A stretch of 64,000 nt of DNA from Neobacillus cucumis. GTDB taxonomy: Bacteria; Bacillota; Bacilli; Bacillales_B; DSM-18226. The notes under the pieces were generated by a model, which saw nothing but the letters and a program-made list of their open reading frames with translations, ran no database searches and was not told the DNA's origin. Positions 38,979-57,547 of this stretch are shown piece after piece; positions within the stretch are counted from its first letter, which is position 1; every line of letters starts with the position of its first letter. The translations under genes and the position numbers were made by a program. Location: positions 124,001-188,000 of the forward strand of contig NZ_JAMBOH010000002.1 of assembly GCF_023715505.1 (NCBI RefSeq), given 5' to 3'.

Positions 38979-39014
38979 CATTATCAAAAATTAACTGTCA
39001 GTGAGGTGGGTGCA

Positions 39015-39974
39015 ATGCCACAGTTAGGGAAACAAAGCAATCAAATCGCTATAAACCAGGTTCAACCGAAAATAAACTCTAAAAGCACCTTAAGTTTAAA
39101 AAAACAAAAAGGTACTCTTAGTCTACTATTATTTGTTCTTCCGGCTTTTATCTTTTATTTTGTGTTTTTGTTGATTCCAACGGTTGGGGCAGGTTTTTAT
39201 AGCTTTACCGATTGGAATGCATTATCGCAAACCTTTCATTTTGTTGGTCTTAGTAACTATATTGAAGCGTTTAAAGATGACCCAGATTTTCGTCATTCCT
39301 TTTTCTTTACTTTAAAATATACGGCGTTCATGTTTGTTTTCCAAAATGTAATCGCGTTACTTCTAGCACTTTTTATTGAAACCCGGGTTAGGACGAAAGG
39401 ATTTTTTCGAACGATATTCTTTATGCCAAATATGTTAAGTTTGATTATTAGTGCGTTAATGTTTTCCTTTATTTTTTCAAATGTTCTTCCGGAACTATCG
39501 AAAAAAGCCATTTTTCATCTTCTTGATCAACCATGGATCGGTGACGCAAAAGTGTCCTTCTATTCTATCCTAATCGTCTCATTGTGGCATGGGATTGGCT
39601 ATATGATGGTCATTTATATGGCAGCACTGCAGGGTGTACCGTCACACCTAAAAGAGGCGGCCATGATTGATGGAGCAAATCCATTCCAAAGACTTATTCA
39701 TGTAACGATTCCAATGATTATGCACGCGATTACCATTTGTGCTTTCTTAACATTGAATGGTGCCTTCAAAGTGTTTGATGTTGTTTATGCACTCACTGCA
39801 GGCGGACCGGGAAGATCGACACAGGTAATGGCCCTTAATATTTATGAAGAGGCATTCTCCAATAATTTTAGATATGGTTATGCCAATGCAAAAGCAATGA
39901 TACTCTTTCTGATTGTTTTAGTGATTACATTGATCCAAGTCAAAGTGTTGAAAAAGAAAGAGGTGGAAGCATAA
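39015..39974 (+). CDS. Sugar ABC importer permease (MalF type)
   Basis: A 319-residue protein with six main membrane segments and the EAA loop EAAMIDGANPFQRLIHVTIP. A Lys-rich cytoplasmic N terminus precedes the first segment near residue 33. ATG 39015 has GAGGTG at normal spacing; an in-frame GTG at 39006 overlaps that site. Its partner permease overlaps by one base (TAATG). No ATPase gene is in the operon; a shared MsmX-like ATPase is expected. Confidence 0.9.
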   Translation: MPQLGKQSNQIAINQVQPKINSKSTLSLKKQKGTLSLLLFVLPAFIFYFVFLLIPTVGAGFYSFTDWNALSQTFHFVGLSNYIEAFKDDPDFRHSFFFTLKYTAFMFVFQNVIALLLALFIETRVRTKGFFRTIFFMPNMLSLIISALMFSFIFSNVLPELSKKAIFHLLDQPWIGDAKVSFYSILIVSLWHGIGYMMVIYMAALQGVPSHLKEAAMIDGANPFQRLIHVTIPMIMHAITICAFLTLNGAFKVFDVVYALTAGGPGRSTQVMALNIYEEAFSNNFRYGYANAKAMILFLIVLVITLIQVKVLKKKEVEA

Positions 39975-40792
39975 TGAAAAGACTATACGGAGTAGCGGCT
40001 ACTCTTATTCTAGCAATTTTTGCGGCCATATCGTTTTTCCCTATCTACATGGCTTTTATTAATTCCTTTAAAACACAAGGAGAAATTTTTAAATCCGTTT
40101 TAAAGCTGCCAACTAAATTGCATTTTGAAAATTATACAGGTGTATTTGAGCAGCTAGATTTATTTCATAGCGCCTGGAATACAATCCTTGTCACGGTAAT
40201 AGGATTAGCAGGCATTGTTATATGCGGTTCCCTGGCAGGTTATAAATTAGCTAGGACTCCAGGGAAATTAAGTAATTTTATCTTTACTTTATTCCTAGCA
40301 TCAATGCTTGTCCCTTTTCATTCTATTATGATTACCTTAACCAAAATTGCAAAAGGGTTACATGTACAGGGGTCTATTTATGGATTAGGGCTTATCTATA
40401 TTGGGCTTGGGGTTAACATGGCCATCTTTTTATATCACGGTTTCGTTAAAACCATCCCAAAAGAGCTAGAGGAAGCGGCAAGAATTGATGGATGTAATGA
40501 CTTTCAGATCTTTACGAAAATCATTTTTCCTCTTCTAAAGCCAATCACAGCGACCATCCTTATTTTAGATATCTTGTGGCTATGGAATGATTTCTTATTG
40601 CCATTGATTATGTTGACAGATGTGAATAATTATACCTTGATGTTATCCGTTAACATGTTATTTGGCGAATACAACAGTGATTGGCCTAAAATTCTTTCAG
40701 GGCTTATTATTACGGCACTGCCTGTTGTCGTGTTCTATGCGATTTTCCAAAAATATATTCTTAAGGGAATTGCAGATGGTGCGATTAAATAA
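39974..40792 (+). CDS. Sugar ABC importer permease (MalG type)
   Basis: A 272-residue CUT1 permease with six membrane segments and the EAA loop EEAARIDGCNDFQIFTKIIFP. The start codon overlaps the stop of the preceding permease, so the pair is made in equal amounts. The product completes the membrane channel of the first sugar importer. Confidence 0.9.
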   Translation: MKRLYGVAATLILAIFAAISFFPIYMAFINSFKTQGEIFKSVLKLPTKLHFENYTGVFEQLDLFHSAWNTILVTVIGLAGIVICGSLAGYKLARTPGKLSNFIFTLFLASMLVPFHSIMITLTKIAKGLHVQGSIYGLGLIYIGLGVNMAIFLYHGFVKTIPKELEEAARIDGCNDFQIFTKIIFPLLKPITATILILDILWLWNDFLLPLIMLTDVNNYTLMLSVNMLFGEYNSDWPKILSGLIITALPVVVFYAIFQKYILKGIADGAIK

Positions 40793-40831
40793 AGCAATTG
40801 GTTAGCACAAAGTAGGAAGGTGAAAAATGTT

Positions 40832-42838
40832 ATGAAACAATTGTTATACGGAGTTGCGTATTATGATGAATACATGCCTTATGAACGATTAGAAAAAGAT
40901 ATTGAGATGATGAAAGAGGCAGGGATTAATGTTGTCCGTATCGCTGAATCGACGTGGAGCACCCATGAACCGCAGAATGGGGTGTTTGACTTTTCTTCAG
41001 TGGACCGGGTACTGAATGCCATGCACAGTGCGGGAATCAAAGTCATTGTTGGGACACCAACCTATGCGATCCCAACTTGGATGGTGAAAGAACATCCAGA
41101 TGTCTTGGCAATTACCCCAAAGGGACCGGGAAAGTATGGGGCTCGTCAGATAATGGATATCACCAATCCAACTTATCTTTTTTATGCCGAACGGATTATC
41201 CGAAAATTGATTGGACATGTAAAGGATCACCCAGCCGTAATAGGCTACCAGACGGATAATGAGACAAAGCACTATGACACTGCGGGTCCGAATGTTCAGG
41301 TATTATTCGTTAAATACATGAAAGAACAGTTTAAAACACTAGATAATATTAACAACCTTTTTGGTCTTGATTACTGGAGCAATCGTATTAATAGTTGGGA
41401 GGATTTCCCTTCAGTTGTTGGAACAATAAATGGCAGTTTAGGATCAGAGTTTGCAAGATTTCAAAGACAGCTAGTAACGGAGTTTCTTTCCTGGCAGGTT
41501 TCAATAGTTAATGAGTATAAACGTCAGGACCAGTTTGTTATGCAAAACTTTGATTTTGAATGGCGCGGTTATTCCTACGGGATTCAACCAAGAGTAGACC
41601 ATTTTGAAGCGGCTAAGGCATTTGATATTACTGGAGTAGACATTTATCATCCATCACAGGACGATTTAACCGGAATTGAAATTTCTTTTGGCGGAGACGT
41701 AGCTCGCTCTACAAAGGGAACCAATTATCTTGTTGTTGAAACCGAAGCACAAGCATTTACCCATTGGGTGCCATATCCGGGGCAGCTAAGGCTTCAGGCA
41801 TTTTCTCATTTAGCTTCAGGAGCTAACATGGTCGCCTACTGGCATTGGCATTCTATTCACAACTCGTTTGAAACCTATTGGAAAGGGCTGCTCAGCCATG
41901 ATTTTGAACCCAATCCTGTCTACAATGAAGCAAAAACAATCGGCAGAGATTTTGAAAGACTCTCTCCACATCTAGTAAATCTGAAGAAAAATAATAAAGT
42001 TGCTATATTAGTTAGCAATGAATCATTGACGGCTCTCGATTGGTTTAAATTTAATTTTTCTAGTTCCAAAAATTACAATGATATTGTTCGAATGATGTAT
42101 GATGAGCTTTACAAAATGAATATTGGCTGTGATTTTGTTCATCCATCTAGTGATCATTTTGAAGACTATGAGATGATCATTGTTCCAGCCTTGTATACTG
42201 CTCCTGACCGCTTGCTAGAGCGATTAAACGAGTTTGTTAAAAACGGTGGTCACGTAATATATACGTTCAAGAGTGGATTTACGGACGAACATGTAAAGGT
42301 AAGAACGACTCCGCAGCCTGGTATTATTAATGAGGCATGCGGAATATATTACAATATGTTCGTTGAACCGAAGAATGTTTCCTTAACAGATGATCCTTTC
42401 CAGGTTGGCCAAGAAAATAATACGGTGGAAACTTGGATGGAACTACTAACACCAACCACGGCAAAAGTATTAGCATATTATGATCACCCGCATTGGGGAA
42501 AGTATGCAGCTGTCACAGAAAATCAGTATGGTAAAGGACTAGCAACCTATATTGGTTGTATGCCTAGTTCAGCGATCATGCAAAAGATATTGGAGCATGC
42601 CATAAAAAAGGCGAATCTGTGGGGAGTAGACCAAGAGCTCGCCTTTCCGTTAATCGTTAAGTCGGGGATAAACCAAGAAGGAAAGCATGTTCATTATTAC
42701 TTTAATTACTCAGAGGTTCCAAATTCTCTAAGGTATCCCCATAAAGACGGTGTCGAATTGTTAACTCATAGTACTGTGACTAAGGCGCAAACATTGGACG
42801 TAGAGCCTTGGGGAGTCCTTATTATAGAAGAGCTGTAA
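40832..42838 (+). CDS. GH42 beta-galactosidase
   Basis: An intracellular 668-residue GH42 enzyme. The catalytic barrel has acid/base Glu144 in GYQTDNET and nucleophile Glu303 in NYLVVETEAQ; the GH42-typical GVAYYDEYMP start and trimerisation and C-terminal domains are present, and there is no signal peptide. ATG 40832 is chosen because GGAAGGTG precedes it; GTG 40820 overlaps that site. Coupled to a CUT1 importer, it would cut beta-galactosides, or arabinosides (a known side activity), after uptake. Confidence 0.9.
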   Translation: MKQLLYGVAYYDEYMPYERLEKDIEMMKEAGINVVRIAESTWSTHEPQNGVFDFSSVDRVLNAMHSAGIKVIVGTPTYAIPTWMVKEHPDVLAITPKGPGKYGARQIMDITNPTYLFYAERIIRKLIGHVKDHPAVIGYQTDNETKHYDTAGPNVQVLFVKYMKEQFKTLDNINNLFGLDYWSNRINSWEDFPSVVGTINGSLGSEFARFQRQLVTEFLSWQVSIVNEYKRQDQFVMQNFDFEWRGYSYGIQPRVDHFEAAKAFDITGVDIYHPSQDDLTGIEISFGGDVARSTKGTNYLVVETEAQAFTHWVPYPGQLRLQAFSHLASGANMVAYWHWHSIHNSFETYWKGLLSHDFEPNPVYNEAKTIGRDFERLSPHLVNLKKNNKVAILVSNESLTALDWFKFNFSSSKNYNDIVRMMYDELYKMNIGCDFVHPSSDHFEDYEMIIVPALYTAPDRLLERLNEFVKNGGHVIYTFKSGFTDEHVKVRTTPQPGIINEACGIYYNMFVEPKNVSLTDDPFQVGQENNTVETWMELLTPTTAKVLAYYDHPHWGKYAAVTENQYGKGLATYIGCMPSSAIMQKILEHAIKKANLWGVDQELAFPLIVKSGINQEGKHVHYYFNYSEVPNSLRYPHKDGVELLTHSTVTKAQTLDVEPWGVLIIEEL

Positions 42839-44756: not shown

Positions 44757-44865
44757 TGACAGATTGATAACTGCAGCTTATAAGCACAGTAATATACCAT
44801 TTTGAAAAGTCTACCAAACTTCAAAGGAGCTTTTAATAGAATTTCTATAAATGGAGGAAATGAAG

Positions 44866-45888
44866 ATGAAATTAAAAGTAGGGATAGTCGGTGTCGGTAA
44901 TATCGGCAGCATTCATGCATCTGTTTATAAAGAAAATCCAAACACTGAAATTATAGCAGTCTGCGATATTGTGAAAGCTAAAGCAGATCAAGCTGCGGAA
45001 AAGTTTGGCGGGCAGGCTTTCTACAGTGTCAACGAAATGCTAGAAAGTGGAATTCAACTTGATCTTGTAAGCGTATGCACAAAAGGAGAAGAAAATGGCG
45101 GTGAACATTTTACCCCAACAATTCAATTGTTGGAAGCAGGCATACCTGTGCTTGGTGAAAAGCCAATTTCAAATGATATAAAAGAAGGAATCCAAATGGT
45201 TGAACTTGCGAAGAGAAACCGTATTCCTTATGCCATTAACCTTAATCATCGATTTACACCAGCTGCTGAAAGAGCCAAAGAATGGATTGAAAATGACCGG
45301 CTTGGCAAAGTTCATATGATTAATATGAGAATGTGGATTAACAATCCTGTTGAAAGCTCACCATGGTTCCATTTGCGTGCATTGCACCCGCATTCTTTCG
45401 ATGTTATCCGATATTTCTGCGGTGATGTCAAAAGAGTAGCTGCGTTTATGATGAAAGGAGAAGGCCGCTCCATTTGGTCCAATACGCAAATTCTCCTTGA
45501 ATTTGAAAATGGCGCCATTGGTAATTTAGTAGGAAGTTATGATGCCGGAGCTAGCTATGGTCTAGAACTTTGTGAGGTAGTCGGTTCAAGAGGCCGGTTT
45601 GTCTTGGAGGACGCCTGTGAACAACTATCTTTTTATCCTCGTCATAGTATTGAGACAGAAAATTACAGCTATCTAGGTGGAATGCGTAATTTTAACGAAA
45701 CGTTTAAAAGTCGGATCAACTCTTTCGTCGACCAGCTCCTTTCTGGTGTTACCTATGATCAAGTAAATGGATCAGGTGAAGATGCCCTTAAAGCACAGTT
45801 GATTATCGAAGCTGCTATTGAATCTTGGAATACTGGAACCATTGTCGAAGTGAAAAATTTGGAGCCAATAACAGGAGGGCTAAAATGA
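44866..45888 (+). CDS. Gfo/Idh/MocA family sugar dehydrogenase, first copy
   Basis: A 340-residue NAD(P)-dependent oxidoreductase: Rossmann loop VGIVGVGNIGS, GEKPIS with the catalytic lysine, and a C-terminal substrate domain with NLNHRF and RALHPHSFDVIRYF. Members oxidise or reduce sugars, inositols or sugar acids. ATG 44866 is behind GGAGG; the ATG at 44851 overlaps that site. It opens the operon with a sugar isomerase-like protein and sulfatase-fold hydrolases. It is paralogous to the gene at 48206, which shares the RALHPHS block. Confidence 0.88.
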   Translation: MKLKVGIVGVGNIGSIHASVYKENPNTEIIAVCDIVKAKADQAAEKFGGQAFYSVNEMLESGIQLDLVSVCTKGEENGGEHFTPTIQLLEAGIPVLGEKPISNDIKEGIQMVELAKRNRIPYAINLNHRFTPAAERAKEWIENDRLGKVHMINMRMWINNPVESSPWFHLRALHPHSFDVIRYFCGDVKRVAAFMMKGEGRSIWSNTQILLEFENGAIGNLVGSYDAGASYGLELCEVVGSRGRFVLEDACEQLSFYPRHSIETENYSYLGGMRNFNETFKSRINSFVDQLLSGVTYDQVNGSGEDALKAQLIIEAAIESWNTGTIVEVKNLEPITGGLK

Positions 45889-46709
45889 TTAAACTAGGTG
45901 TAAATTCAGTATTATTTAAGGATTTTGATTTTGCGACCGCGGCAAAGCACATAGCGTTAGCAGGTTATGATGGAGTGGAAATTGCGGCTATTAAAGGTAT
46001 GTGTGAACATCTTGAGCTTGACCGATGGAAAGAACAAGCTGTTGAAATACGTTCCATAGCCGACCAATATGGCCTTGAGTTATTGTCAATGGAAGTTGCC
46101 TCGCTTGATGAAGACCGTCTAACAAAGGCATTTGAGGCTGGAGCAGAGATCGGAATTCCAATTATTAATGTAGGTCCTGGAGGGAAGGCAGGAGTTGAAG
46201 AGGACCTTCTACAATCAATCGAAAAACTTAATCTCATGTCTATGAAGGCAGAAACGTATGGCTTAACACTTTGCGTGAAAGCACATGTTGGAAATGCCAT
46301 TTACAATACGCCAACTACATTGCGAGCAATGAATGAAATTTCTTCACAGGCCTTTGGAATCGATATGGATCCTAGCCATATTTATCGGGGCAATGAAAAT
46401 CCTGAGGAGGAGCTTCCTAAAATATTAAATCATGTGAGACATATTCACATTCGAGATTGTCGAGGACGTGCAAAAGGGCCAGGAGAGATTCAAAATCAGG
46501 CTTGCGGCCGCGGGGACATTGATTTATACGGTTATTGCCAAGCGTTGGTTGATGGGAATTACTCTGGTCCAGTTTGTTTGGAAGTAATTGGAGCAAATCA
46601 ACACTCATTAGCAGAGGTGTCTATAATAGCAGCAGAAAGCTATGGCTATTTAAATGCTTGCCTAAAAACCCTAGGTGCCAGGTCAAAAAATCTTGTAAAG
46701 AAAGGATAG
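45885..46709 (+). CDS. Sugar phosphate isomerase/epimerase (xylose-isomerase-like TIM barrel)
   Basis: A 274-residue AP endonuclease 2/xylose-isomerase-like barrel with likely metal residues in LCVKAHVGN, GIDMDPSHIYRG, HIHIRDCRG and CLEVIG. The start ATG overlaps the stop of the Gfo/Idh gene (ATGA), and AGGAGGG lies just upstream, so translation is coupled. Such a pair commonly oxidises a sugar and then isomerises or epimerises the keto product. Confidence 0.85.
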   Translation: MIKLGVNSVLFKDFDFATAAKHIALAGYDGVEIAAIKGMCEHLELDRWKEQAVEIRSIADQYGLELLSMEVASLDEDRLTKAFEAGAEIGIPIINVGPGGKAGVEEDLLQSIEKLNLMSMKAETYGLTLCVKAHVGNAIYNTPTTLRAMNEISSQAFGIDMDPSHIYRGNENPEEELPKILNHVRHIHIRDCRGRAKGPGEIQNQACGRGDIDLYGYCQALVDGNYSGPVCLEVIGANQHSLAEVSIIAAESYGYLNACLKTLGARSKNLVKKG

Positions 46710-46720
46710 GTAAGCAAAGC

Positions 46721-48145
46721 ATGAAAAAAGCAAATGTGATACTTTTTGGCATTGACAGTTTAAGAAGGGATCGAATGAGCTCTTATGGATATCATCGCTT
46801 AACAACTCCTCATATTGATCAAATAGCCAAAAGTGGAGTGTTATTTGAAAATCATTTTAGTCCAAGCATTCCCACCACCCCAGGTTATGCTTCGATGTTG
46901 ACAGGCATGGATTGCTTTGGGACAGATGTTGTTGCGTTAAGGCATAATGGACCCCTGGGAGATCATGTGAAAACACTTGCTGAAATTCTTGGGGAGAGCG
47001 GGTACAACACCACTTGTGTGGGATTTACAGGGAATCCATCGGCACGAGGATTTCAAAAGTATCTTGACTATGAAGCTTGGCAGCCTGATGAAACTAATAG
47101 ATGCCCTAAGGCGGGAAATTTAAATGATGTGACAATTCCTGAATTGAAAAGACTTGCAGAAGAGGATCAGCCATTTTTCTTATTTTTAAGACATATGGAT
47201 CCCCATTCTCCTTATTTACCGCCAAAACCATATGAAAAAATGTTCTATGGTGGTAATGAGAAGGACCCTGACAATGACTCCTTGAATGAAATGTATAATT
47301 TTAAGCCATTTGCTGATTTTTTAAGCTCATGGATCCCGGAAGGCTGTACAGATTCTGAATATGTAGATGCCCAATATGATGGAGCATTAGCCTATATGGA
47401 TGCATGTATTCAAAATATTCTGGCGACTGTTGAATCATTGGGTATCGAGGAAGAAACCTTAATTATTATGACTTCGGACCATGGTGAAACGCTAAACGAG
47501 CATCAATGCTGGTACGATCACCACAGCCTATATGAACACAATTTAATTGTACCTTTAATATTAAAATATCCAGGGAAATTACCTGAAGGAAAGCGTTTTT
47601 TAAATATATCACTAATTAAGGATATCACTCCGACAATTCTTGCCTTGCTTGGTATCGATTCTTCCATTCCGTTTGATGGGCAAAATCTTCTTCCATTGAT
47701 CAATGGAAGGAAGGAAGAAATGGAGCATGTGTCTGAATTTTACATTACTGAGTGTACATGGATGCGAAAACATGGCTGGCGGACACCAGAGTGGAAACTT
47801 ATAAGAGCACTTGAACCTGATTTTCATTTTAAACCTGAAATTGAACTATATAATTTGATTAAGGATCCAAATGAACTTGAAAATGTGGCTGAAAAAGAAC
47901 CACAGATGGTTAATCTTCTTTTGGGAAGAATGGATGCCTACATTGCGAAACGAGAAAGGGAAACAGGCCGTACGAATCCAATGTATACAAATTTGAGCTG
48001 GCACGGACTTGAACGGGGACCATTTAAAACGTCTGAAGAAGCCTACGAATCCTTGTACATTGGTTCCCTTAACACTGCACAGAAACTCCAGGAAAAACAG
48101 AAAGAAGAACCAATCGTTCAGATAGAAGAAAGTATACGCAAGTAA
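46721..48145 (+). CDS. Sulfatase-fold hydrolase with Thr at the formylglycine position
   Basis: A 474-residue cytoplasmic member of the alkaline phosphatase superfamily. Metal residue Asp12 (FGIDSLRRDR) and TSDHGETLNEH are in place. The signature that should read C/S-X-P-X-R is T52-T-P-G-Y56 followed by ASMLTG, so it cannot form formylglycine. It may therefore be a phosphodiesterase or phosphonate-type hydrolase with a Thr nucleophile, or have changed activity. There is no signal peptide. It is similar to the third hydrolase (LFLRHMDPHSPYLPPK versus LFLHYWDAHTPYLPPK). ATG 46721 is behind AAAGGATAGG; a longer frame to 46574 overlaps the previous gene. Confidence 0.85.
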   Translation: MKKANVILFGIDSLRRDRMSSYGYHRLTTPHIDQIAKSGVLFENHFSPSIPTTPGYASMLTGMDCFGTDVVALRHNGPLGDHVKTLAEILGESGYNTTCVGFTGNPSARGFQKYLDYEAWQPDETNRCPKAGNLNDVTIPELKRLAEEDQPFFLFLRHMDPHSPYLPPKPYEKMFYGGNEKDPDNDSLNEMYNFKPFADFLSSWIPEGCTDSEYVDAQYDGALAYMDACIQNILATVESLGIEEETLIIMTSDHGETLNEHQCWYDHHSLYEHNLIVPLILKYPGKLPEGKRFLNISLIKDITPTILALLGIDSSIPFDGQNLLPLINGRKEEMEHVSEFYITECTWMRKHGWRTPEWKLIRALEPDFHFKPEIELYNLIKDPNELENVAEKEPQMVNLLLGRMDAYIAKRERETGRTNPMYTNLSWHGLERGPFKTSEEAYESLYIGSLNTAQKLQEKQKEEPIVQIEESIRK

Positions 48146-48148
48146 AAA

Positions 48149-48181
48149 AAATGCTTCGAGGGGATTTCCCTCGAAGCATTT
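48149..48181 (+). terminator. Hairpin between the first sulfatase-fold gene and second Gfo/Idh gene
   Basis: AAATGCTTCGAGGG pairs perfectly with CCCTCGAAGCATTT around GATTT. The following T run is short (TTTAT), so it may be a partial terminator that grades expression within the operon. Confidence 0.6.
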
Positions 48182-48205
48182 ATAACTTGAAAAGGGTGAT
48201 AAAAC

Positions 48206-49225
48206 ATGCTTAAAGCAGCGGTTGTTGGAGTTAATAATATTGGTAAGAATCATTGCCGTGCCTATCAACAAAATAAGGACGTCCAATTAGTGGCTGTCTG
48301 TGATTTAAATAGAGACTTAGCAGTTACAGTGGGACAAGAATTTGGTGTTAAAGCATTTACGGATATAAAAACGATGTTCGAAAAAGAGGAAATTGATGTG
48401 GTTAGTATTGCCACAGGTGGTCAGGAAAAGGGGTCACACCATTACGAACCGGCGATGATTGCAATGGAAGCGGGGAAGGATGTATTAGTAGAAAAACCTC
48501 TTTCTAATAAAATTGAGGAAGCGGGGGAATTAGTTGAATATGCGCGTAAAAAAGGGGTACGTTTGGCTTGCAACCTTAACCATCGTTTTGTGCCGGTCGC
48601 TTATCGAGCAAAAGAGTTAATCAATGATGGCAGTCTTGGGACTTTGCTTTTCGTTAATATGAAATTAACGATTGGCAATCCGATTGAATCAAGCCCTTGG
48701 ATTCATATGAGAGCGCTTCACCCGCATTCTATTGATGTCATGCGTTACTTTGCCGGTAACATTAAACGAGTTCAGTCGTTTATGACAAAGGCACCTGATC
48801 GGACTGTATGGTCAACAGCTTCTATTAATCTTGAATTTGAATCTGGTGCTGTCGGGCACTTAACCGGTAGTTATGACATGGATAACATTCACCCTATCGA
48901 ATCTTGTGAAGTAGCGGGTAACAAAGGACGATTTATTATTGATAATGTCTTTGAAAGTTTATCTTATTATCCGCATAGAAAAAATGAAATAACAGTAGTT
49001 CGAAACTCGATATTGACTGGAATGAATGGTTTTAACGAGACCTTTAAAGAGCGGATTAACAAGTTTGTCAGTGAGATAAAAAATAATATCCATCCAAGTG
49101 AAATTATGGGTTCCGGTTTAGATGCTTTAGCTGCTCAGGAGGTCATCGAAGCGGCCATTCGTTCCCAAATGGAGAACGGTGCCGTCATCGATGTTCCCAA
49201 AATAAAGGAACAATTCATTTATTAA
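48206..49225 (+). CDS. Gfo/Idh/MocA family sugar dehydrogenase, second copy
   Basis: A 339-residue paralogue of the protein at 44866, with EKPLSNK, NLNHRFVP and RALHPHSIDVMRYF blocks. Its nucleotide loop is degenerate: AVVGVNNIGKNH has Asn in place of the middle Gly. AAAGGGTGATAAAAC precedes the ATG. Two such enzymes in one operon suggest consecutive oxidation and reduction, as in redox-neutral sugar epimerisation or nucleophile exchange; that is inference. Confidence 0.87.
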   Translation: MLKAAVVGVNNIGKNHCRAYQQNKDVQLVAVCDLNRDLAVTVGQEFGVKAFTDIKTMFEKEEIDVVSIATGGQEKGSHHYEPAMIAMEAGKDVLVEKPLSNKIEEAGELVEYARKKGVRLACNLNHRFVPVAYRAKELINDGSLGTLLFVNMKLTIGNPIESSPWIHMRALHPHSIDVMRYFAGNIKRVQSFMTKAPDRTVWSTASINLEFESGAVGHLTGSYDMDNIHPIESCEVAGNKGRFIIDNVFESLSYYPHRKNEITVVRNSILTGMNGFNETFKERINKFVSEIKNNIHPSEIMGSGLDALAAQEVIEAAIRSQMENGAVIDVPKIKEQFIY

Positions 49226-49234
49226 AAGGTGATG

Positions 49235-50629
49235 AATATGGAACAACGGCCCAATATCTTGATGATAACCGTGGATCAGCAGCGTTATGATTGTATTGGC
49301 TTCAGTAAGGCTTATCCGGTTAAGACCCCTAATCTCGACCAGTTTGCCTCAGAAGGTATCTGGTTTTCAAATGCCTATGCGCACTTGCCTGCCTGTGGAC
49401 CTGCAAGGCAGTCATTTATGAATGGCAGACGTCCGGAAGCAATTGGATGCCTATGGAATTTTAATAATGGGTTAAAAATTCCCGCGTTGGAGCCATCGGA
49501 ATATGCCTGGTCTAGGGAATTGATTAAACTAAATTATCAAACTGCTTATATAGGAAAATGGGGAGTACACCCTGTTAACGCTCCAACCCAGTATGGATAT
49601 GAGCATTATGTTGATGAGAGAGAATATGAACTATTTCAGAAAGAGCGCTACCCTAATGTTCGATTTGTGAACACTTATTTCGGCGAATCTAACCCTATCC
49701 CTGTTGAAGATTCAAAGACCCATTGGACAGCGAAAAAAGCAACGGATATGATTGAAAAATTATCAAAGTCAGGAAAACCGTGGCATATTCGTGTGAATTT
49801 TTCAGAGCCGCATTTACCCTGTCGGCCATCAAAGCCGTTTTCGGAAATGTACTCTTTAGATGATATTCCGATGTGGAACAATTTTTATGATTCATTCGAG
49901 AACAAACCATATATTCAAAAACAACAATTATATAGTTGGGGAGTTGAAAATTATACTTGGGATAATTGGGCTCCCATTGTTGCAAGATACTATGGGATTA
50001 TTAGTCAATTAGATGACGCTATTGGAAAAATACTGTCGACCTTAGATCAATTAGCTGCTTCAGAAAATACCATTGTCATTTATACAAGTGATCATGGGGA
50101 TTTATGCGGGGCGCATCGAATGATGGACAAACATTATGTGCTATATGAAGAAGTAATTAAAGTCCCACTTATTATCAAGTGGAAAAAAGGAATACCAAAA
50201 AATCGTATTTGCGATGAGTTTGTCTACAATTTCCTGGATTTACCTCCAACCATCCTTGAGTGGCTGAAAGTGGATATCCCTAATTTTTTTCAAGGAAGGT
50301 CACTTGTTAAATTATTACATGGGAAGCGAGTTAAGGATTGGCGAAACCATTTGGTTTCAACCTATAACGGACAGCAATTTGGTCTATACACACAAAGAAT
50401 GATCCGAAATCACCATTGGAAGTATATTTGGAATACAACCGATATTGATGAGTTATATGACCTAAAAGAAGATCCCTCGGAACTTAACAATCGAATCTAT
50501 GATCAATCAAATTCTAATATAGTAAAACAATTGAGAGAAACACTTTACTGGCAGTTACACCATGACCAAGACGGATTAGTCGACAATCAATGGATGAAAT
50601 TACAACTTTTAGGCGGTCGTAAACTGTAG
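49235..50629 (+). CDS. Cys-type sulfatase, cytoplasmic
   Basis: A 464-residue arylsulfatase-type enzyme with the full formylglycine signature C53-G-P-A-R57 (ACGPARQSFMNGR), metal residues in MITVDQQR (Asp13) and TSDHGDLCGAH. A Cys-type site must be matured by a formylglycine-generating enzyme or an anaerobic sulfatase-maturing enzyme; neither gene is in the window. It has no signal peptide, so sulfate esters would be cut inside the cell. ATG 49235 is used; ATG 49229 sits too close to AAAAGGTG. Confidence 0.9.
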   Translation, partial: NMEQRPNILMITVDQQRYDCIGFSKAYPVKTPNLDQFASEGIWFSNAYAHLPACGPARQSFMNGRRPEAIGCLWNFNNGLKIPALEPSEYAWSRELIKLNYQTAYIGKWGVHPVNAPTQYGYEHYVDEREYELFQKERYPNVRFVNTYFGESNPIPVEDSKTHWTAKKATDMIEKLSKSGKPWHIRVNFSEPHLPCRPSKPFSEMYSLDDIPMWNNFYDSFENKPYIQKQQLYSWGVENYTWDNWAPIVARYYGIISQLDDAIGKILSTLDQLAASENTIVIYTSDHGDLCGAHRMMDKHYVLYEEVIKVPLIIKWKKGIPKNRICDEFVYNFLDLPPTILEWLKVDIPNFFQGRSLVKLLHGKRVKDWRNHLVSTYNGQQFGLYTQRMIRNHHWKYIWNTTDIDELYDLKEDPSELNNRIYDQSNSNIVKQLRETLYWQLHHDQDGLVDNQWMKLQLLGGRKL

Positions 50630-50773
50630 AATTTTTTAAATACCTATAGTAACTTTGTCAAATTTATTATCTAATATATAATATTTTCAGAATATTCGAC
50701 TGATTTTGAGTGAGAAAAATATTAGAATGGTATTGTTGTTAGAAAATGATTGATTAGGAGGGAAAATGTCTGA

Positions 50774-51694
50774 ATGAAATTACGATGCAGTGAATTTATG
50801 GAGGTTAAAGAATTCCCTTTTTGTATAAGAAGATACATCCATGACCATTTTAATACTCCACCGGTTCATTCACATGAATTTATTGAACTAATCTATGTTG
50901 TTCAAGGTGAGGCCGAGCATATTTTTGAAGGACAATCATATAAAATTTATTCAAATGATGTATTTATAATTAATCCTGGTGAAGTTCATACTTTTAGTGT
51001 TGAGGAAGGAAAAACAATTGAAATCATTAATTGCTTATTTTTACCTAACCTAATTCAGGGGTCATGGTTAAAAGAATTGGGTGTATCGCAATCTATGGAC
51101 TATTTTTATATTCATCCATTTTTAAATAAAAATGAGAGGTTTCATCATGGCCTAAATTTAAAAGGGAATTACTCCATCCGGTTTCTTGCACAGCTTGAAA
51201 AAATGATTCAAGAATTTGAAAAAGGCAGTAGTATATCTTCCGTCTTAATCCGTTTACAGTTAGTAGAGCTTTTAATACTATTGTCCCAAATTTATAACGA
51301 AAAAAGGACGATCCCCGGCATTGCTTACAATGTAGACCATGAAAGAAAGATCCTTATTCAGCGGATTTGCGGTTATCTAGAAAGACACTATGATCAGAAA
51401 ATTTCTATTCCTGACCTTTGCCAGTTATTTAATATTAGTGCTCGACATCTTAACCGCTTATTTAAGCAAGAGACGAATGAAACGGTAGTTGAGATGATTC
51501 AAAGGATTAGGATCGAAAAAGCGAAGTATTTACTTCTAGCTTCAGATGAAAAAGTGATTAATATTGCGATGCGTGTCGGATATGATGACCCTGCCTTTTT
51601 TAGTAAGTTATTTCGCCGGGTTGTTGGGTGTTCGCCTGGAAAATATAAAGCTCAATCGGCAGATGAATCTTTTCAGCGGCGAGTTGTATTATAG
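50774..51694 (+). CDS. AraC-family activator with cupin sensor domain, first copy
   Basis: A 306-residue regulator: an N-terminal cupin (PPVHSHEFIELIYVVQGEAE, about 25-110) binds a sugar-like effector, and a C-terminal double HTH (about 200-300; SIPDLCQLFNISARHLNRLFK, INIAMRVGYDDPAFFSKLFRR) binds DNA. AGGAGGG is 13 bases from the ATG, but a three-codon ORF (MSE, 50766-50777) with ideal spacing ends in TGA overlapping this ATG, which suggests reinitiation. It lies between the two groups of hydrolase genes and probably activates them through direct repeats upstream of the next gene. Confidence 0.88.
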   Translation: MKLRCSEFMEVKEFPFCIRRYIHDHFNTPPVHSHEFIELIYVVQGEAEHIFEGQSYKIYSNDVFIINPGEVHTFSVEEGKTIEIINCLFLPNLIQGSWLKELGVSQSMDYFYIHPFLNKNERFHHGLNLKGNYSIRFLAQLEKMIQEFEKGSSISSVLIRLQLVELLILLSQIYNEKRTIPGIAYNVDHERKILIQRICGYLERHYDQKISIPDLCQLFNISARHLNRLFKQETNETVVEMIQRIRIEKAKYLLLASDEKVINIAMRVGYDDPAFFSKLFRRVVGCSPGKYKAQSADESFQRRVVL

Positions 51695-51750
51695 TGTATC
51701 GGAACAAAGCCATTGCTAGAGACAACTGTTTTTTACTTACAACAATATAG

Positions 51751-51786
51751 ATGTCCTAATAGACCAGTAAAATGTCCAAATAGACT
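51751..51786 (+). promoter_or_regulatory. Tandem AraC-type operator over the -35 region
   Basis: The 15-bp sequence ATGTCCTAATAGACC (51751-51765) recurs as ATGTCCAAATAGACT (51772-51786), a 21-bp period equal to two helical turns. The second copy covers the -35 position of a promoter whose -10 is a perfect TATAAT at 51798-51803. This is the classic class II activator layout. Confidence 0.7.
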
Positions 51787-51870
51787 ATGATTTTTACTAT
51801 AATAAACAGTAAAATGAGGGAAAGTAGACCATTTTAACTAGAGGAATTCCTTTATAAGGAGAGGTGAAAA

Positions 51871-53295
51871 TTGAAAATCATATTTATTTCCTTAGATACA
51901 CTTCGTGCAAATAGGCTAGGCTGTTATGGCTACCATCTTCCTACTAGCCCCTATATGGATGAAATTGCGAGAGATGGGGTATTATTTGAAAACGCTTACG
52001 CGTCCGATATTCCTACTGAGGTTGCCCACACTAGTATTTTCACTGGTAAGGTTGGTTTAACGACCGGGGTCGTTTCCCATGGTTCTCCTTCCTCCTTCCT
52101 ACCAAAAGATTATGAATGGCTGCCCAATATGCTCAGAAAAGCTGGCTTTACAACTGGTGCAGTGGACAACTTATATCATTTAAAAGAATGGTTTGCAAGA
52201 GGGTATCAATATTATATCAACACAATCGGAAAAACTAGGTGGATCGATGGACATACCGTTAATCGTTTAGCAAAACCATGGATTAAAGAGCATAAAGATG
52301 AGAACTTTTTCTTATTCCTCCATTATTGGGATGCACACACACCATATTTACCACCAAAGAAATACATCCCACCCTTCTATGATTCATCAAAAGATCCTTA
52401 CGACCCAACGAGTAGGAGTATGGAGCGAGCTTATAATCATCTCGCTTATCCTTTCTTTAAATTTCATCATTTTGATTTACTTGGGAACGTTACAGATACC
52501 AAATATGTAGATGCATTATATGATGCAGAGATTCGATACCTAGATGATATCCTCAAAGATTTAGATCACTATTTGTTTGAACTAGGTATTAAGGATGATA
52601 CGATGTTAATCCTGTTTGGAGATCATGGTGAAAGCTTAACAGAGCATGATATCTATTGGGATCATTGCGGTTTGTATGAATCAACTGTTCATGTCCCTCT
52701 CATTATAAGGTGGCCCGGGCAAATTCATAACGGGGTGCGGGTAAAAGGTTTAGTTCAACATGCTGATTTAATGCCGACCATATTAGAAGCAATAGGGACA
52801 GATTTGCCCAATGACCTAGACGGCAAAAGCTTATGGGGATTAATAAATGGAACAGAGGAGCACCTTCACTCGGAAATCTACCTAAGTGAATGTGCTTGGC
52901 AGGCAAGTAGAGGAGTTCGTACAAATAAATATAAATTTATAAAAACATACGACTCAGGTCTATTTACCCGCCCGCCATACGAGCTCTATGATTTGTATAA
53001 GGATCCAAATGAGGAGATCAACTTAGCCGACAAGCTGCCTGAAATAACAGAGAAATATGAAATAATGTTAAATAACTGGATAAAATCCAAATTAAATAAT
53101 CGTGCTGATCCTATGGAGGTTGTTCTAAGAGAAGAAGGCCTGCCATTCAAAAGACGGATTATTAAAATTTTATCTGAGTATGGATTAACCTGGGAAGAGT
53201 GGTTAGCCAATCCAAGACGCGAACGAATTGACTTTCCTGTTACTCATGGTAGTAATAAATTTGAGATACAGGGGGGGAACTTCAAGGTTAATTAA
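51871..53295 (+). CDS. Second sulfatase-fold hydrolase with Thr at the formylglycine position
   Basis: A 474-residue alkaline-phosphatase-superfamily hydrolase with Asp9 in ISLDTLRANR and GDHGESLTEHD, but its signature is T49-E-V-A-H53 followed by TSIFTG, lacking Cys/Ser, Pro and Arg of the sulfatase motif. It groups with the hydrolase at 46721 and is cytoplasmic. The start is TTG behind AAGGAGAGGTGAAAA. It is transcribed from its own AraC-type promoter ahead of the second sugar importer. Confidence 0.85.
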   Translation: MKIIFISLDTLRANRLGCYGYHLPTSPYMDEIARDGVLFENAYASDIPTEVAHTSIFTGKVGLTTGVVSHGSPSSFLPKDYEWLPNMLRKAGFTTGAVDNLYHLKEWFARGYQYYINTIGKTRWIDGHTVNRLAKPWIKEHKDENFFLFLHYWDAHTPYLPPKKYIPPFYDSSKDPYDPTSRSMERAYNHLAYPFFKFHHFDLLGNVTDTKYVDALYDAEIRYLDDILKDLDHYLFELGIKDDTMLILFGDHGESLTEHDIYWDHCGLYESTVHVPLIIRWPGQIHNGVRVKGLVQHADLMPTILEAIGTDLPNDLDGKSLWGLINGTEEHLHSEIYLSECAWQASRGVRTNKYKFIKTYDSGLFTRPPYELYDLYKDPNEEINLADKLPEITEKYEIMLNNWIKSKLNNRADPMEVVLREEGLPFKRRIIKILSEYGLTWEEWLANPRRERIDFPVTHGSNKFEIQGGNFKVN

Positions 53296-53362
53296 CAGAA
53301 ATTTCTGATTAAATTAGGATTCAGTTCAAACCTTTTAGAACCTTTCATGATCCTCAAAACAA

Positions 53363-53377
53363 AAGTCTATTTTACAT
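53363..53377 (-). promoter_or_regulatory. Single copy of the AraC-type operator before the second importer
   Basis: The minus strand reads ATGTAAAATAGACTT, 12 of 15 identical to the repeat at 51772. It lies about 90 bases upstream of the second binding-protein gene in the opposite orientation, with no tandem partner seen. Confidence 0.4.
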
Positions 53378-53464
53378 ACACCAAAGATCGGTTTAAGTAA
53401 GAAATCTATAAATTTGGTTTAGATAATTTTTTAAATAGATTAATAGGATGAAGGGGGAAAAGAA

Positions 53465-54772
53465 ATGTTAAAAAGAAAAAAGATTTTGGCCGTATTATCA
53501 AGTGCTGCACTCGTTGCAGGAATTTTAGCTGGCTGCAGCAGTAAAACAGATGGAAACGGCGATTCAAGTTCAAAAGAAGTAACATTAAAACTTTCCATTG
53601 GAAATACAGCCGTCTTGGATGGAATTAAAGCCGTTTCTGCAGATATTGAAAAAAAATACCATATCAAAACCGAGATTGAAACTACCCCGACAGGTGGGGA
53701 AGGGGACAATCTTGTCAAAACACGTTTGGCTACTGGTGATATGAGTGATTTGCTTGTTTATAATTCAGGCTCTCTTTTGCAAGCGATTAATCCTGAGAAA
53801 AACTTTGTTGACTTGACCAATGAACCATTTATGGATAATGTTATGGATCTGTTTAAGAAAACGGTTACAGTCAATGGTAAAGTGTTCGGTGTTCCATCAG
53901 GGAATACCTCGGCTGGCGGCTGGTTGTATAACAAAAAGGTATATGCTGAACTAGGTCTTTCAGTTCCAAAAACCTGGGACGAATTAATGGCTAATAATGA
54001 GAAAATAAAAGCTGCGGGTAAAACGGCCGTTATTGGTACGTATAAAACAGACTGGACAACTCAGCTTATCTACCTTGCTGATAACTATAATGTCCTAGCG
54101 CAAGAACCGGATTTTGCTGAAAAATATACAGCTAACAAGGCTAAAATTGCCGATACCCCAGCTGCGTTTAGAAGTTTTGAAAAATTGGCGGAAGTGTACA
54201 AGAGGGGCTTTTTGAACAAAGATTTTAAAGCTACTACCTATGAGCAAGGGGTGAAAATGCTTGCGGAGGGTACTGGTGCACACTATCCTATGCTCTCATC
54301 AGCTCTCATTGCCATTGCAAAAAATTATCCTGATAAACTGAATGACATCGGCTTTTTCCCGCAGCCTAGTGATAATACAGAACAAAATGGAATTACAGTT
54401 TGGATGCCAGGAGCCGTGTATATTTACAAAGAAGGTAAAAATGTAGAGGCCGCAAAAAAATGGGTATCCTATTTTGTCTCCCCAGAGGGCGTGAAGACGT
54501 ACCTTGAAAACATGAACCCAGAAGGTCCACTTGTTATTAAAGATGCAAAGATGCCAGACAATATTATGCCTGCTGTTAAGGATATGCTGCCGTTCTTTGA
54601 ATCTGGAAAAACAAATCTTGCACTAGAATTTCTTAGCCCCATAAAAGGACCAAGCTTACCACAAATCACAACGGAAGTAGGCAGTGGAATTTCCTCGGCG
54701 AAAAAAGGTGCGGAACAATATGATAAAGATGTAGAAAAGCAAGCCAAACAGCTAGGTCTTAAAGGCTGGTAA
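53465..54772 (+). CDS. Second sugar ABC importer solute-binding lipoprotein
   Basis: A 435-residue lipoprotein with lipobox LAGC (Cys23) and a CUT1-type binding fold (LVKTRLATGDMSDLLVYNSG, VPSGNTSAGGWLYNKKVY, YFVSPEGVKTYLENM). AGGGGGAAAAG precedes the ATG. It is the first gene of a three-gene importer placed after the third hydrolase gene, so the cargo is probably the esterified sugar handled by those enzymes. Confidence 0.9.
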   Translation: MLKRKKILAVLSSAALVAGILAGCSSKTDGNGDSSSKEVTLKLSIGNTAVLDGIKAVSADIEKKYHIKTEIETTPTGGEGDNLVKTRLATGDMSDLLVYNSGSLLQAINPEKNFVDLTNEPFMDNVMDLFKKTVTVNGKVFGVPSGNTSAGGWLYNKKVYAELGLSVPKTWDELMANNEKIKAAGKTAVIGTYKTDWTTQLIYLADNYNVLAQEPDFAEKYTANKAKIADTPAAFRSFEKLAEVYKRGFLNKDFKATTYEQGVKMLAEGTGAHYPMLSSALIAIAKNYPDKLNDIGFFPQPSDNTEQNGITVWMPGAVYIYKEGKNVEAAKKWVSYFVSPEGVKTYLENMNPEGPLVIKDAKMPDNIMPAVKDMLPFFESGKTNLALEFLSPIKGPSLPQITTEVGSGISSAKKGAEQYDKDVEKQAKQLGLKGW

Positions 54773-54788
54773 ATAAAAAGTGAGGAAA

Positions 54789-54819
54789 ATTGGCTCTGTT
54801 ATATTTTTGCAGGGCCAAT
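54789..54819 (+). other. Intercistronic hairpin in the second importer operon
   Basis: ATTGGCTCTG pairs with CAGGGCCAAT (one mismatch-type pair) around a T-rich loop, followed by a short T stretch. It sits between binding-protein and permease genes, as in the first importer operon. Confidence 0.55.
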
Positions 54820-54849
54820 CTTTCTAATAATATGGGAGGAGATAGAGAA

Positions 54850-55716
54850 ATGAATAGGAGCTTAAGTCAAACTTATACCTACTTATTTTTAGTGCCTGCA
54901 GGTATTATCTATTTTGTCTTTTTCTTGCTGCCAACGATTATGTCATTATTTTTCAGTATGACATGGTGGTCATTAACAGATTGGAAATTTATAGGTTTAG
55001 AAAACTTTAAAACTTTTTTCACAGAATCTTCCTTAAATATAGGATTTAAAAACACGATTATTTACGCAGTGGTAACTTGTAGCTTGAAGGTTGTTATTGG
55101 GCTATTGCTTGGGGTATTTTTATGTACTAAAATCCGGACTGTAGGTTTCATTCGATCGATGGTGTTTTTTCCGACGCTTTTAAGTACTATTGCTGTAGGG
55201 ATGGCCTTTACCGTGTTAATGCATCCTTCTCAAGGTTTCATTAACTTGGCACTAAAAACTATTGGAATTGCTGGGCCAGATTGGTTAGGTGACACGAATA
55301 TTGCTCTTTTATCGGTGGCGCTTGTCGATGTTTGGAAGGGAGTAGGAATAGCAACGGTCATATTTATTGCCGGTATAATGTCTATTCCGGAAGAATATTA
55401 TGAGGCTTTAATGATTGATGGTGGGAATGGTTTTCATAAATTTTGGAACATTATTTTACCGTTAAGCCGGCCGGCTATGAATTCAGTCATTATTTTAGCT
55501 TTTATTGGCGGATTGCGTTCATTTGATTTGATTTGGGCAATGACAAAAGGTGGTCCAGGTTTCAGCACGGATTTGATAGCTTCTATTATATATAAGCAAT
55601 ACCAAGGCGGCTTTTATGGTTTATCCACAGCCGGAAATGTTATTTTATTTGTAGTTGTTTCTGCTTTAGCGTTCCCTCTATATGCCTTCTTAAATAAAAA
55701 AGAGGTGGATTTATAA
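54850..55716 (+). CDS. Second sugar ABC importer permease (MalF type)
   Basis: A 288-residue permease with six membrane segments and the EAA loop YEALMIDGGNGFHKFWNIILP. ATG 54850 is chosen because GGGAGGAG lies upstream; a frame from 54790 runs through the hairpin and lacks a ribosome site. It abuts the MalG-type partner with no gap. Confidence 0.9.
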   Translation: MNRSLSQTYTYLFLVPAGIIYFVFFLLPTIMSLFFSMTWWSLTDWKFIGLENFKTFFTESSLNIGFKNTIIYAVVTCSLKVVIGLLLGVFLCTKIRTVGFIRSMVFFPTLLSTIAVGMAFTVLMHPSQGFINLALKTIGIAGPDWLGDTNIALLSVALVDVWKGVGIATVIFIAGIMSIPEEYYEALMIDGGNGFHKFWNIILPLSRPAMNSVIILAFIGGLRSFDLIWAMTKGGPGFSTDLIASIIYKQYQGGFYGLSTAGNVILFVVVSALAFPLYAFLNKKEVDL

Positions 55717-56607
55717 ATGAGTAAAATAGCCGAACAAACTGCTGCGTCACCAGTTGCCTTTATTGAAAATAGAAAGTTTAGTAGTAAAAGCATAAAAAAA
55801 ATTATTACTGAAACTATTGCAGTCCTTCTAACACTAATCATTTTTGGAATACCTTTCTACTTCGTTATGATCAATGCAGTAAAAAATACACAGGAATCCT
55901 CCCTGTTAAATATGAGTTGGCCTTCTTCTTTCCACTTAGTAGAAAATATGAAAGAGGTCCTGGCAGCTCAGAATAACATGATGCAGCACGCATTTGTAAA
56001 CAGTATTTTGATCACTGGATTTTCCATCGTAATTTTGATTTTGGCAGGTTCGATGGCGGGATATGTATTACATCGGAAAGTAACAAAGTTAACACCATTC
56101 TTCGATTTTTTAATCTTAACAGGATTAATCATTCCTCCAGCCATTGTACCCACGATTTGGGTGTTGAATGGAATTGGATTGTTTAAAACAATGCCAGGGA
56201 TTGTCTTGGTCGAAGTTGCTCTACACCTTCCGTTTACTATTTTACTTTATAAAGGCTTTATGGCAACCATTCCAAAACAGCTTGATGAAGCAGCATTAAT
56301 CGATGGATGTGGGAAGTTTAAGTTGTTTTTTAAGATTATCTTTCCACTATTAAAGCCTGTATCAGCAACTGTCATCGTGTTGACCGCCGTTGGAATATAC
56401 AATGATTTTGTTAATCCGCTTTATTTTTACCCAGGTTCTGAAAATGCAACTTTACAGCTTACACTTTATAATTTTTCTAGTATGTTTAACACTCAGTGGA
56501 ACTTATTATTTACCAATATATTGTTGATTTCGATTCCACCATTAATCTTGTTTATCATTTTCAACAAAAAGATTGTAGCAGGTATGACAGCCGGTTCAAT
56601 AAAGTAA
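55717..56607 (+). CDS. Second sugar ABC importer permease (MalG type)
   Basis: A 296-residue CUT1 permease with a longer cytoplasmic N terminus, six membrane segments and the EAA loop DEAALIDGCGKFKLFFKIIFP. It starts directly at the end of its partner gene. No ATPase gene follows; the operon ends with a terminator. Confidence 0.9.
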   Translation: MSKIAEQTAASPVAFIENRKFSSKSIKKIITETIAVLLTLIIFGIPFYFVMINAVKNTQESSLLNMSWPSSFHLVENMKEVLAAQNNMMQHAFVNSILITGFSIVILILAGSMAGYVLHRKVTKLTPFFDFLILTGLIIPPAIVPTIWVLNGIGLFKTMPGIVLVEVALHLPFTILLYKGFMATIPKQLDEAALIDGCGKFKLFFKIIFPLLKPVSATVIVLTAVGIYNDFVNPLYFYPGSENATLQLTLYNFSSMFNTQWNLLFTNILLISIPPLILFIIFNKKIVAGMTAGSIK

Positions 56608-56754: not shown

Positions 56755-57547
56755 TTAGCCCTCTTTGGATAATAGTGGAAATATGCCGCCCTTGAGCGGT
56801 GCATCTTTATCTAATCCCAAGTCAGAAGTTATGGGATGGGGTTTATTGTTATAGGTCGTACCATCGGGCATAAAAATCATAACAAATGCTCTACGTGGTT
56901 TATTTGTATTATTTGCAAAAGCATAGTGGAATGTTAAACCATTATGAAAAGTACAGCTTCCAGCCTTCATTTTAACAATAACAGGTTTTTTATTCTCTAA
57001 ACCAGTGTCTTTTGCATATTCGAGAAGATCCTCGGGGTCGGCTAAATTAATTGGTTTAAGCTGTCCAGCTTTTTGAGATTTAGGCAGGAACATCATACAA
57101 CCATTGTGTTCGTCCACATCATAGTGCAATCCAAATAGAGATTGTTTTTTCTGCCACATCTTTATTCATTGGCCAATAAGGGAAATCCTGATGCCATGGA
57201 GTTGGTTTCGAATCTCCTGGCATTTTTAATAATGCTTGATCATGAAATAATCTTATCCCATTTGACCCAGTTAATTGGAGGGCTAAATTTGAGAATCGTG
57301 GGTTGAAAACAAATTTTGCCATTCCTCCATGGTCTCGCCACGTATTGACTCGTTGGTTAAGTACCCGATAGTAAGCTCCTCCTTTCGTATCGGTTTGAAT
57401 AGATAAACCATTGCTAGCGGCCATTACTTCTTCTAAATGAGTTCTAAGTTCAAGAAGCTCTTCTTGGGTTATGACATCGTCAACTTGTACAAAGCCATTC
57501 TCACGATAAAACTCAATTTTTTCTTTTGTAAGAAGATTTTCTTCCAT
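56755..57547 (-). pseudogene. Frameshifted phytanoyl-CoA dioxygenase (PhyH) family gene
   Basis: Two overlapping frames, 57547-57119 and 57159-56755, together make one full-length Fe(II)/2-oxoglutarate dioxygenase. The first holds the HxD metal motif (TPWHQDFPYWP) and stops after TISIWIAL; the second resumes at DVDEHNGCMMFLP and carries the distal His and Arg (GLTFHYAFANN, KPRRAF). The frame is lost at 57119-57122, where GCACTA-TGATGTG would read ALDDVDEHNG if one GAT-repeat unit had not lost two bases. All catalytic residues are otherwise intact, so the lesion is recent or a sequencing error. AGGAGGG precedes the ATG. It is divergent from the second AraC gene. Confidence 0.8.

Follow-up and report, generated by a model that had tools for sequence, protein, structure and literature searches.

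Type I sulfatases, among them those of SulfAtlas family S1, are defined by formylglycine. A threonine nucleophile is found, together with a DHGE-type metal motif, in lipoteichoic acid synthase (LtaS) and the phosphoethanolamine transferases, which are membrane-anchored and extracytoplasmic. Phosphonate monoester hydrolases have an Asp/His metal site and a cytoplasmic location. In Pfam family PF00884, 30 of the 59 seed sequences carry Thr, and such members have been left aside as unproven: no conversion of Thr to formylglycine has ever been demonstrated, and proteins of the TXNXE type lack characterisation and cannot be classed as sulfatases (PMC5066984). Here we describe a conserved pair of Thr-bearing proteins of the sulfatase fold, S1 and S3, and the gene cluster in which they lie in Neobacillus cucumis (assembly GCF_023715505.1, contig NZ_JAMBOH010000002.1, positions 124,001 to 188,000; this stretch of 64,000 nucleotides is hereafter the window, and coordinates are positions within it). 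The pair and the cluster are what appears to be new: our search of the open-licence literature listed no paper that, by its title or the opening of its abstract, deals with Thr sulfatases, with formylglycine-independent SulfAtlas S1 enzymes, or with either the pair or the cluster. The pair provides a test case for the processing of sulfate esters with a plain threonine, the more so given its gene-order tie to sulfate-activating enzymes and its presence in a genome without a detectable maturase, and the cluster sketches an apparently undescribed pathway by which Bacillales would process a sulfated sugar inside the cell. The three sulfatase-family genes of the window and the two codons of interest are as follows.

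46721..48145, plus strand: S1, sulfatase-fold hydrolase with Thr52 at the formylglycine position (TTPGY), from Pfam and from profile and structure alignments
46874..46876, plus strand: ACC codon of S1 Thr52, presumed nucleophile, from the motif, profile alignment and orthologues
49229..50629, plus strand: S2, ordinary CxPxR-type sulfatase (CGPAR), from Pfam; likely start ATG 49238
51871..53295, plus strand: S3, sulfatase-fold hydrolase with Thr49 at the formylglycine position (TEVAH), from Pfam and from profile and structure alignments
52015..52017, plus strand: ACT codon of S3 Thr49, presumed nucleophile, from the motif, profile alignment and orthologues

Each of the three proteins matched both PF00884 and PF16347. 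Their signatures read T52-T-P-G-Y in S1, T49-E-V-A-H in S3 and C-G-P-A-R in S2, as given in an earlier note on this DNA; the S2 cysteine is C56 when counted from GTG 49229 and, as in that note, C53 when counted from the in-frame ATG 49238. Five profile alignments to solved structures for each protein aligned T52 and T49 with the residue that opens the x-x-P-x-R signature (C, S or A in those structures), and Thr pairs with Thr when S1 and S3 are aligned with each other, which upholds the earlier placement of Thr at the nucleophile site. From 570 confirmed GTDB loci we took the best 80, a sample biased to close relatives, to examine orthologues. Thr occupies the first position of the signature in 80/80 S1 and 64/64 S3 orthologues from these loci and in every one of the 121 rows aligned per family (the S1 set counts the window protein twice); Cys occupies it in 100 of 102 other sulfatase-family open reading frames (ORFs) of the same loci and genomes. 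The metal Asp and DHG(E), whose retention in S1 and S3 had also been claimed, are indeed kept, and MAFFT columns show the metal ligands D12, D253 and H254 of S1 and D9, D251 and H252 of S3 to be invariant among orthologues. Judged from these alignments, the Thr at the formylglycine position is the presumed nucleophile, and S1 and S3 are predicted to be unable to make formylglycine. Since the formylglycine precursor and several sulfate-binding residues are replaced, S1 and S3 could alternatively be non-catalytic and serve as binding or scaffold proteins. We find this hardly credible: no orthologue (of 80 S1 and 64 S3) departs from the Thr, the metal Asp, the Asp-His pair or the PH-motif His, which makes a dead site unlikely.

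Comparison with described enzymes places S1 and S3 nearest to the carbohydrate sulfatases. With formylglycine sulfatases of SulfAtlas S1 (6hr5 of S1_25, 7stt, and 7oz8 of S1_46) they share the whole fold, including the C-terminal SGSH_C domain (Pfam, Foldseek and VIA-align), as well as the metal Asp, DHG and PH-motif His. They differ from them in having Thr for Cys/Ser and Tyr/His for the CxPxR Arg, in lacking the GKWH Lys, in the exchange of a second Lys for Asp-His and in lacking a signal peptide. The earlier note had proposed superposing T52 and T49 on formylglycine; the structural comparison was made as whole-chain alignments of models only (Foldseek and VIA-align), and at that level it gave the sulfatase fold for both proteins. 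The phosphonate monoester hydrolases and phosphodiesterases (SulfAtlas S1_0; 4uph, 2vqr, 2w8s) also resemble S1 and S3 in fold, in the Asp/His metal site and probably in cytoplasmic location. Unlike S1 and S3, they use formylglycine (PMC5066984). Unlike LtaS and the phosphoethanolamine transferases, S1 and S3 have no membrane segment and carry the sulfatase C-terminal domain; neither of these two enzyme types was among the 50 rows listed per model by Foldseek and VIA-align, which does not exclude closeness.

The phylogeny proposed for the two Thr proteins was built from 76 rows (random sets of 14 of the 80 S1 and 14 of the 64 S3 sequences, 45 others and the three window proteins, with locus L070 left out). 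The tree, which has several long end branches and no established root, unites S1 and S3 in one group (98/95), with each a group of its own at 100/100; the joint group adjoins four Cys sulfatases (100/99). S1 and S3 thus appear as two paralogous branches of the SulfAtlas S1 fold that form a single Thr clade. The two also travel together. As a less biased check we used 104 genomes from one family only, that of Paenibacillus chondroitinus (G016), where S1 was present in 43 genomes and S3 in 39; all 39 S3-bearing genomes also have S1, and only four (G022, G044, G053 and G116) have S1 alone. Among 49 genomes chosen because they bear S1, which cover 49 of the 80 loci, an S3-profile match was found in 48, the match in G044 being S1 itself and that in G046 partial; the completeness of these genomes is not stated, so that absences from them are weak evidence. 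Separately, genome G043 (L121, 9289-12552) carries, after S3, another sulfatase paralogue, which belongs to the Cys-type set and has 29% identity to S3.

S1 and S3 probably work inside the cell. In line with the earlier note, inspection of the sequences and hydropathy values, the only means used, showed no signal peptide in S1, S2 or S3. The metal Asp already stands at residue 12 of S1 and residue 9 of S3, and the highest Kyte-Doolittle 19-mer within the first 60 residues scores 0.18 in S1, 0.38 in S2 and 0.58 in S3 (over the whole chain, 1.48 in S1 and 0.89 in S3). S1 and S3 have no hydrophobic segment in these 60 residues and hence no N-terminal membrane domain, and no residue precedes the query's first Met in 117 of 121 S3 rows.

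The neighbours of S3 bear on the ester group. Among the 80 loci, an ORF for adenosine 5'-phosphosulfate (APS) kinase, CysC, is present in 54 and one for ATP sulfurylase, Sat, in 9; because these are the recurrent informative neighbours, sulfate rather than phosphate is indicated. APS kinase and S3 lie on one strand in 46 loci. Setting aside L013, where the kinase comes after S3, and L070, which has broken frames, the end of the kinase ORF in the other 44 ranges from 59 bases ahead of the S3 ORF, taken from its first possible start, to 241 bases within it, and the overlap is exactly one base in 17 of them. The assignment is supported by matches to TIGR00455 (apsK) of 204.7 and 198.8 bits in two Paenibacillus loci (L023 and L031, respectively; cut-off 138.7), and the S3-linked CysC keeps the APS-site motifs of 5cb6, also in the consensus of 44 rows (L023 upwards). 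In the family sample, 38 of the 39 S3-bearing genomes have an APS kinase match no more than about 360 bases from S3 (coordinates compared by eye), the exception being G050 (2.4 Mb), whose kinase is on another contig; in 13 of the 38 the S3-adjacent kinase is the sole match at E <= 1e-20. S3 and the kinase remain together, apart from S1, in G043, and no close S3 orthologue was found in G022 and G044, whose clusters have no kinase. Since G044 does have S2, APS kinase follows S3 rather than S2. ATP sulfurylase joins the association in Lederbergia-type genomes: G003, G006, G007 and G008 have an ATP sulfurylase and APS kinase pair in the cluster in addition to a pair elsewhere, and in L013 of L. 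citrea the ATP sulfurylase gene begins 7 bases downstream of S3, with the APS kinase also after S3.

These neighbours lead us to prefer, tentatively and as a possibility just short of a probable one, the reading that S1 and S3 carry out formylglycine-independent sulfate-ester (or sulfamate) chemistry on an imported sugar inside the cell. An ATP-binding cassette (ABC) importer would bring in a small sulfated sugar-like compound, possibly containing rhamnose, Gfo/Idh and TIM-barrel enzymes would convert the sugar, and sulfate groups would be removed in the cytoplasm by S1 and S3 (and by S2 in loci that have it). The metal-bound Thr would attack the sulfur and water would split the resulting sulfo-threonine, in the manner of phospho-Ser/Thr in the alkaline phosphatase superfamily; with the sulfo-threonine resolved by water, no formylglycine maturase would be needed. 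Turnover without formylglycine is thinkable because there are precedents. In the work reported in PMC6189696, unmodified choline sulfatase of Ensifer meliloti performed multiple turnover of a sulfate ester without formylglycine, although that protein is a formylglycine enzyme with its Cys unmodified, whereas Thr is native in S1 and S3. Likewise, a C61S arylsulfatase retained 20-35% activity, which its authors ascribed to oxidation of the Ser (PMC12421950).

Several observations weigh against this reading. The usual sulfate pocket is lost: the CxPxR Arg is replaced by Tyr in 80/80 S1 and by His in 64/64 S3 orthologues, and in these 80 S1 and 64 S3 rows no Lys stands at either the GKWH or the K302-type column. 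The K302-type Lys has become an Asp-His pair, and its column is ambiguous, as MAFFT puts the Asp there and hidden Markov model (HMM) alignments to 4uph and 5g2v put the adjacent His. S2 keeps the CxPxR signature, the GKW Lys and the K302-type Lys (C56, R60, K110 and K301 in GTG numbering). The coupling to sulfate activation is also incomplete, as no CysC lies within the fetched flanks of 17 of the 63 S3-bearing loci (16 outside Paenibacillus-type genomes, plus L045, on a short contig, which has ATP sulfurylase instead), and the 64 kb window itself gave no CysC or Sat match. Furthermore, a Ser/Thr sulfo-enzyme without formylglycine is expected to turn over poorly. Finally, all eight checked Paenibacillus genomes whose sole strong APS-kinase match is S3-linked encode a CysH with cysteines of the iron-sulfur (Fe-S) type near ATP sulfurylase, so that assimilation should need no APS kinase. 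Because such genomes appear to need no 3'-phosphoadenosine 5'-phosphosulfate (PAPS), simple sulfate scavenging fails to explain the coupling, and the tie between S3 and the kinase is unexplained by ordinary sulfur assimilation. We had also considered APS kinase as proof of sulfate release, an argument undercut by the Fe-S type CysH found in all eight. The argument from assimilation is the less secure because PAPS is also a substrate of some CysH enzymes of the Fe-S type.

The lost Arg and Lys fit a second explanation, in which S1 and S3, as alkaline-phosphatase-superfamily phosphodiesterases (or phosphonate monoesterases), would use a Thr nucleophile to cleave an imported phosphodiester, and only S2 would handle sulfate. 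Nucleotide pyrophosphatases and phosphoethanolamine or phosphoglycerol transferases would be its models. Known examples of a Thr nucleophile in this superfamily come from phosphoryl enzymes, phosphodiester hydrolysis being the best-known Thr chemistry. A DHGESLxEH..DH stretch in S1 and S3 resembles phosphoethanolamine transferases, the NCBIfam EptA model matches S1 at E 6e-11 and S3 at E 2e-9 (both far below the cut-off), and the PDB matches listed include the phosphonate monoester hydrolases 4uph, 2vqr and 2w8s. We nevertheless hold this explanation rather unlikely, since the conserved named neighbours that bear on the ester group are those of sulfate activation, APS kinase follows S3 and not S2 (G044), and the fold is nearest to carbohydrate sulfatases with SGSH_C kept; no recurrent phosphate or phosphonate gene was recognised among the named neighbours, not every ORF having been scanned. 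The Lys-to-His exchange and the DHGESL motif were initially read as a case for phosphate chemistry, which the APS-kinase linkage lowered. The earlier suggestion of phosphate or phosphonate rather than sulfate esters thus finds no support in the gene context, where APS kinase and ATP sulfurylase point to sulfate, although the loss of the sulfate-binding Arg and Lys leaves room for it.

As genomes with the Fe-S type CysH appear not to need PAPS for assimilation, a third explanation stays alive, that S3, perhaps with S1, is a PAPS-dependent sulfo-transferase whose coupled kinase supplies PAPS and whose Thr passes the sulfo group to a sugar hydroxyl. With the sole kinase linked to S3 (13/38 genomes) and CysH of the Fe-S type (8/8), PAPS seems to be made for the S3 cluster, and Thr members of the superfamily are often transferases. 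For comparison we fetched 20 CysC loci away from S3, chosen from the G016 family. None of the 20 gave an S1/S3 HMM match (E <= 1e-6); two adjoin sulfotransferase-domain genes, 11 have an STM4011-4014-like gene order and seven were left unassigned. In view of the Fe-S type CysH and of these loci, the kinase may be a marker of PAPS use and not solely of sulfate handling. The importer, AraC control and canonical sulfatase in the cluster suggest breakdown rather than synthesis, we know of no PAPS enzyme with the sulfatase fold, and no sulfotransferase or phosphatase for 3'-phosphoadenosine 5'-phosphate was recognised among the named neighbours, with no search aimed at them. We therefore regard sulfo-transfer by S3 and perhaps S1 as improbable, and give a slim chance to the specific proposal that S3 is a PAPS-using sulfo-transfer enzyme with the sulfatase fold and a Thr nucleophile, fed by its own coupled APS kinase. 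Were it true, the Thr-bearing STM4013 family beside the same kind of kinase would be a parallel case.

Among the comparison loci, the stand-alone APS kinases of L160 (7901-9176) and L164 (7980-10552) adjoin the sulfotransferase-domain genes as if they were dedicated PAPS suppliers. A similar kinase lies in the STM4011-4014-like order in L166-L169 and L172-L178; nine of these 11 loci were aligned, and family models were run on one, L177, which encodes two radical SAM proteins, an STM4013 sulfatase-fold hydrolase and STM4014. STM4013 of L177 reads T52-Y-A-A-H56, resembling T-x-x-A-H of S3. Equivalence of S3 and STM4013 was not confirmed, as a profile comparison (probability 52%) did not pair the Thr residues, and the likeness is at the level of the motif only.

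Returning to the preferred reading of formylglycine-independent sulfate chemistry, we searched the 49 S1-bearing genomes for maturases. The formylglycine-generating enzyme (FGE) is present in 43 and gave no match in six; the anaerobic maturase anSME was below the cut-off in 49/49, with weaker radical-SAM matches in 15. One of these, in G015 (221 bits, partial), may be a real anSME; with this genome set aside from the six without FGE, G007, G013, G017, G030 and G031 show neither maturase. In G007 (L. citrea), the five PF00884 matches at E <= 1e-10 are S1, S3 and three LtaS-like proteins with five hydrophobic segments each. Thus a genome without detectable formylglycine machinery retains S1 and S3 next to sulfate-activation genes. 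These absences need care because completeness is not stated and because Paenibacillus abyssi (G030; L040 and L126) keeps a Cys-type S2 with no FGE or anSME found in its genome. The 64 kb window has no FGE, with one 24-bit match at E 0.33.

In the window, the cluster spans 44851-56607, all on the plus strand, in the order Gfo1, TIM, S1, Gfo2, S2, AraC1, S3, SBPb, PermB1, PermB2. Besides the sulfatase-family genes listed above, it comprises the following.

44851..45888, plus strand: Gfo1, Gfo/Idh/MocA dehydrogenase (Pfam PF01408, PF22725, PF02894); its orthologue adjoins S1 in many loci
45885..46709, plus strand: TIM, xylose-isomerase-like TIM barrel (AP_endonuc_2, Pfam PF01261); overlaps the end of Gfo1, with AGGAGG ahead of ATG 45885
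48206..49225, plus strand: Gfo2, second Gfo/Idh/MocA dehydrogenase (Pfam); usually directly 3' of S1 in the loci
50774..51694, plus strand: AraC1, AraC-family regulator (Pfam)
53465..54772, plus strand: SBPb, sugar ABC transporter solute-binding protein (Pfam PF01547); travels with CysC-S3 in L121
54790..55716, plus strand: PermB1, ABC transporter permease, named by reading and gene order (no Pfam scan); orthologues in the same order
55717..56607, plus strand: PermB2, ABC transporter permease, named by reading and gene order (no Pfam scan)

The two Gfo/Idh genes, the one TIM-barrel gene and the importer that had been noted beside the sulfatases are thus present, and many Bacillales genomes conserve the import-and-oxidation cluster. 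In most of the 80 loci the order is a Gfo gene (Gfo1 or a different one), TIM, S1 and Gfo2; S3 is found in 63 of the loci and S2 in 47, and importer genes and AraC accompany them. A small-protein gene of the ASRT family (Anabaena sensory rhodopsin transducer) lies inside the cluster in 19/80 loci (e.g. L018, 8570-8938). The S3 protein shares 96% identity with one from Neobacillus bataviensis (database protein search). In Lederbergia citrea (L013, 12579-17408), genes for rhamnulose-phosphate aldolase/dehydrogenase, rhamnulokinase and rhamnose isomerase stand directly after the S1-Gfo2 genes. These L-rhamnose utilisation genes, relatives of which occur in that one of the 80 loci only, give a hint of the identity of the sugar.

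Other features lie within or beside the cluster. A 14-pair stem-loop lies between S1 and Gfo2 (48149-48181) and is terminator-like on the minus strand by scan; terminator-like sites in the window number 10, against a mean of 9.0 in shuffles, i.e. no excess. Downstream, a PhyH-family (phytanoyl-CoA dioxygenase) gene on the minus strand (56755-57547) is broken across two frames (57119-57547 and 56755-57159), and its relatives (56-67% identity) adjoin the same cluster in L002, L015, L022 and L024. Upstream, the region 34654-42838 encodes a second sugar importer and a GH42 beta-galactosidase (Pfam), the importer apparently having its own sensor kinase and response regulator, as judged by reading.

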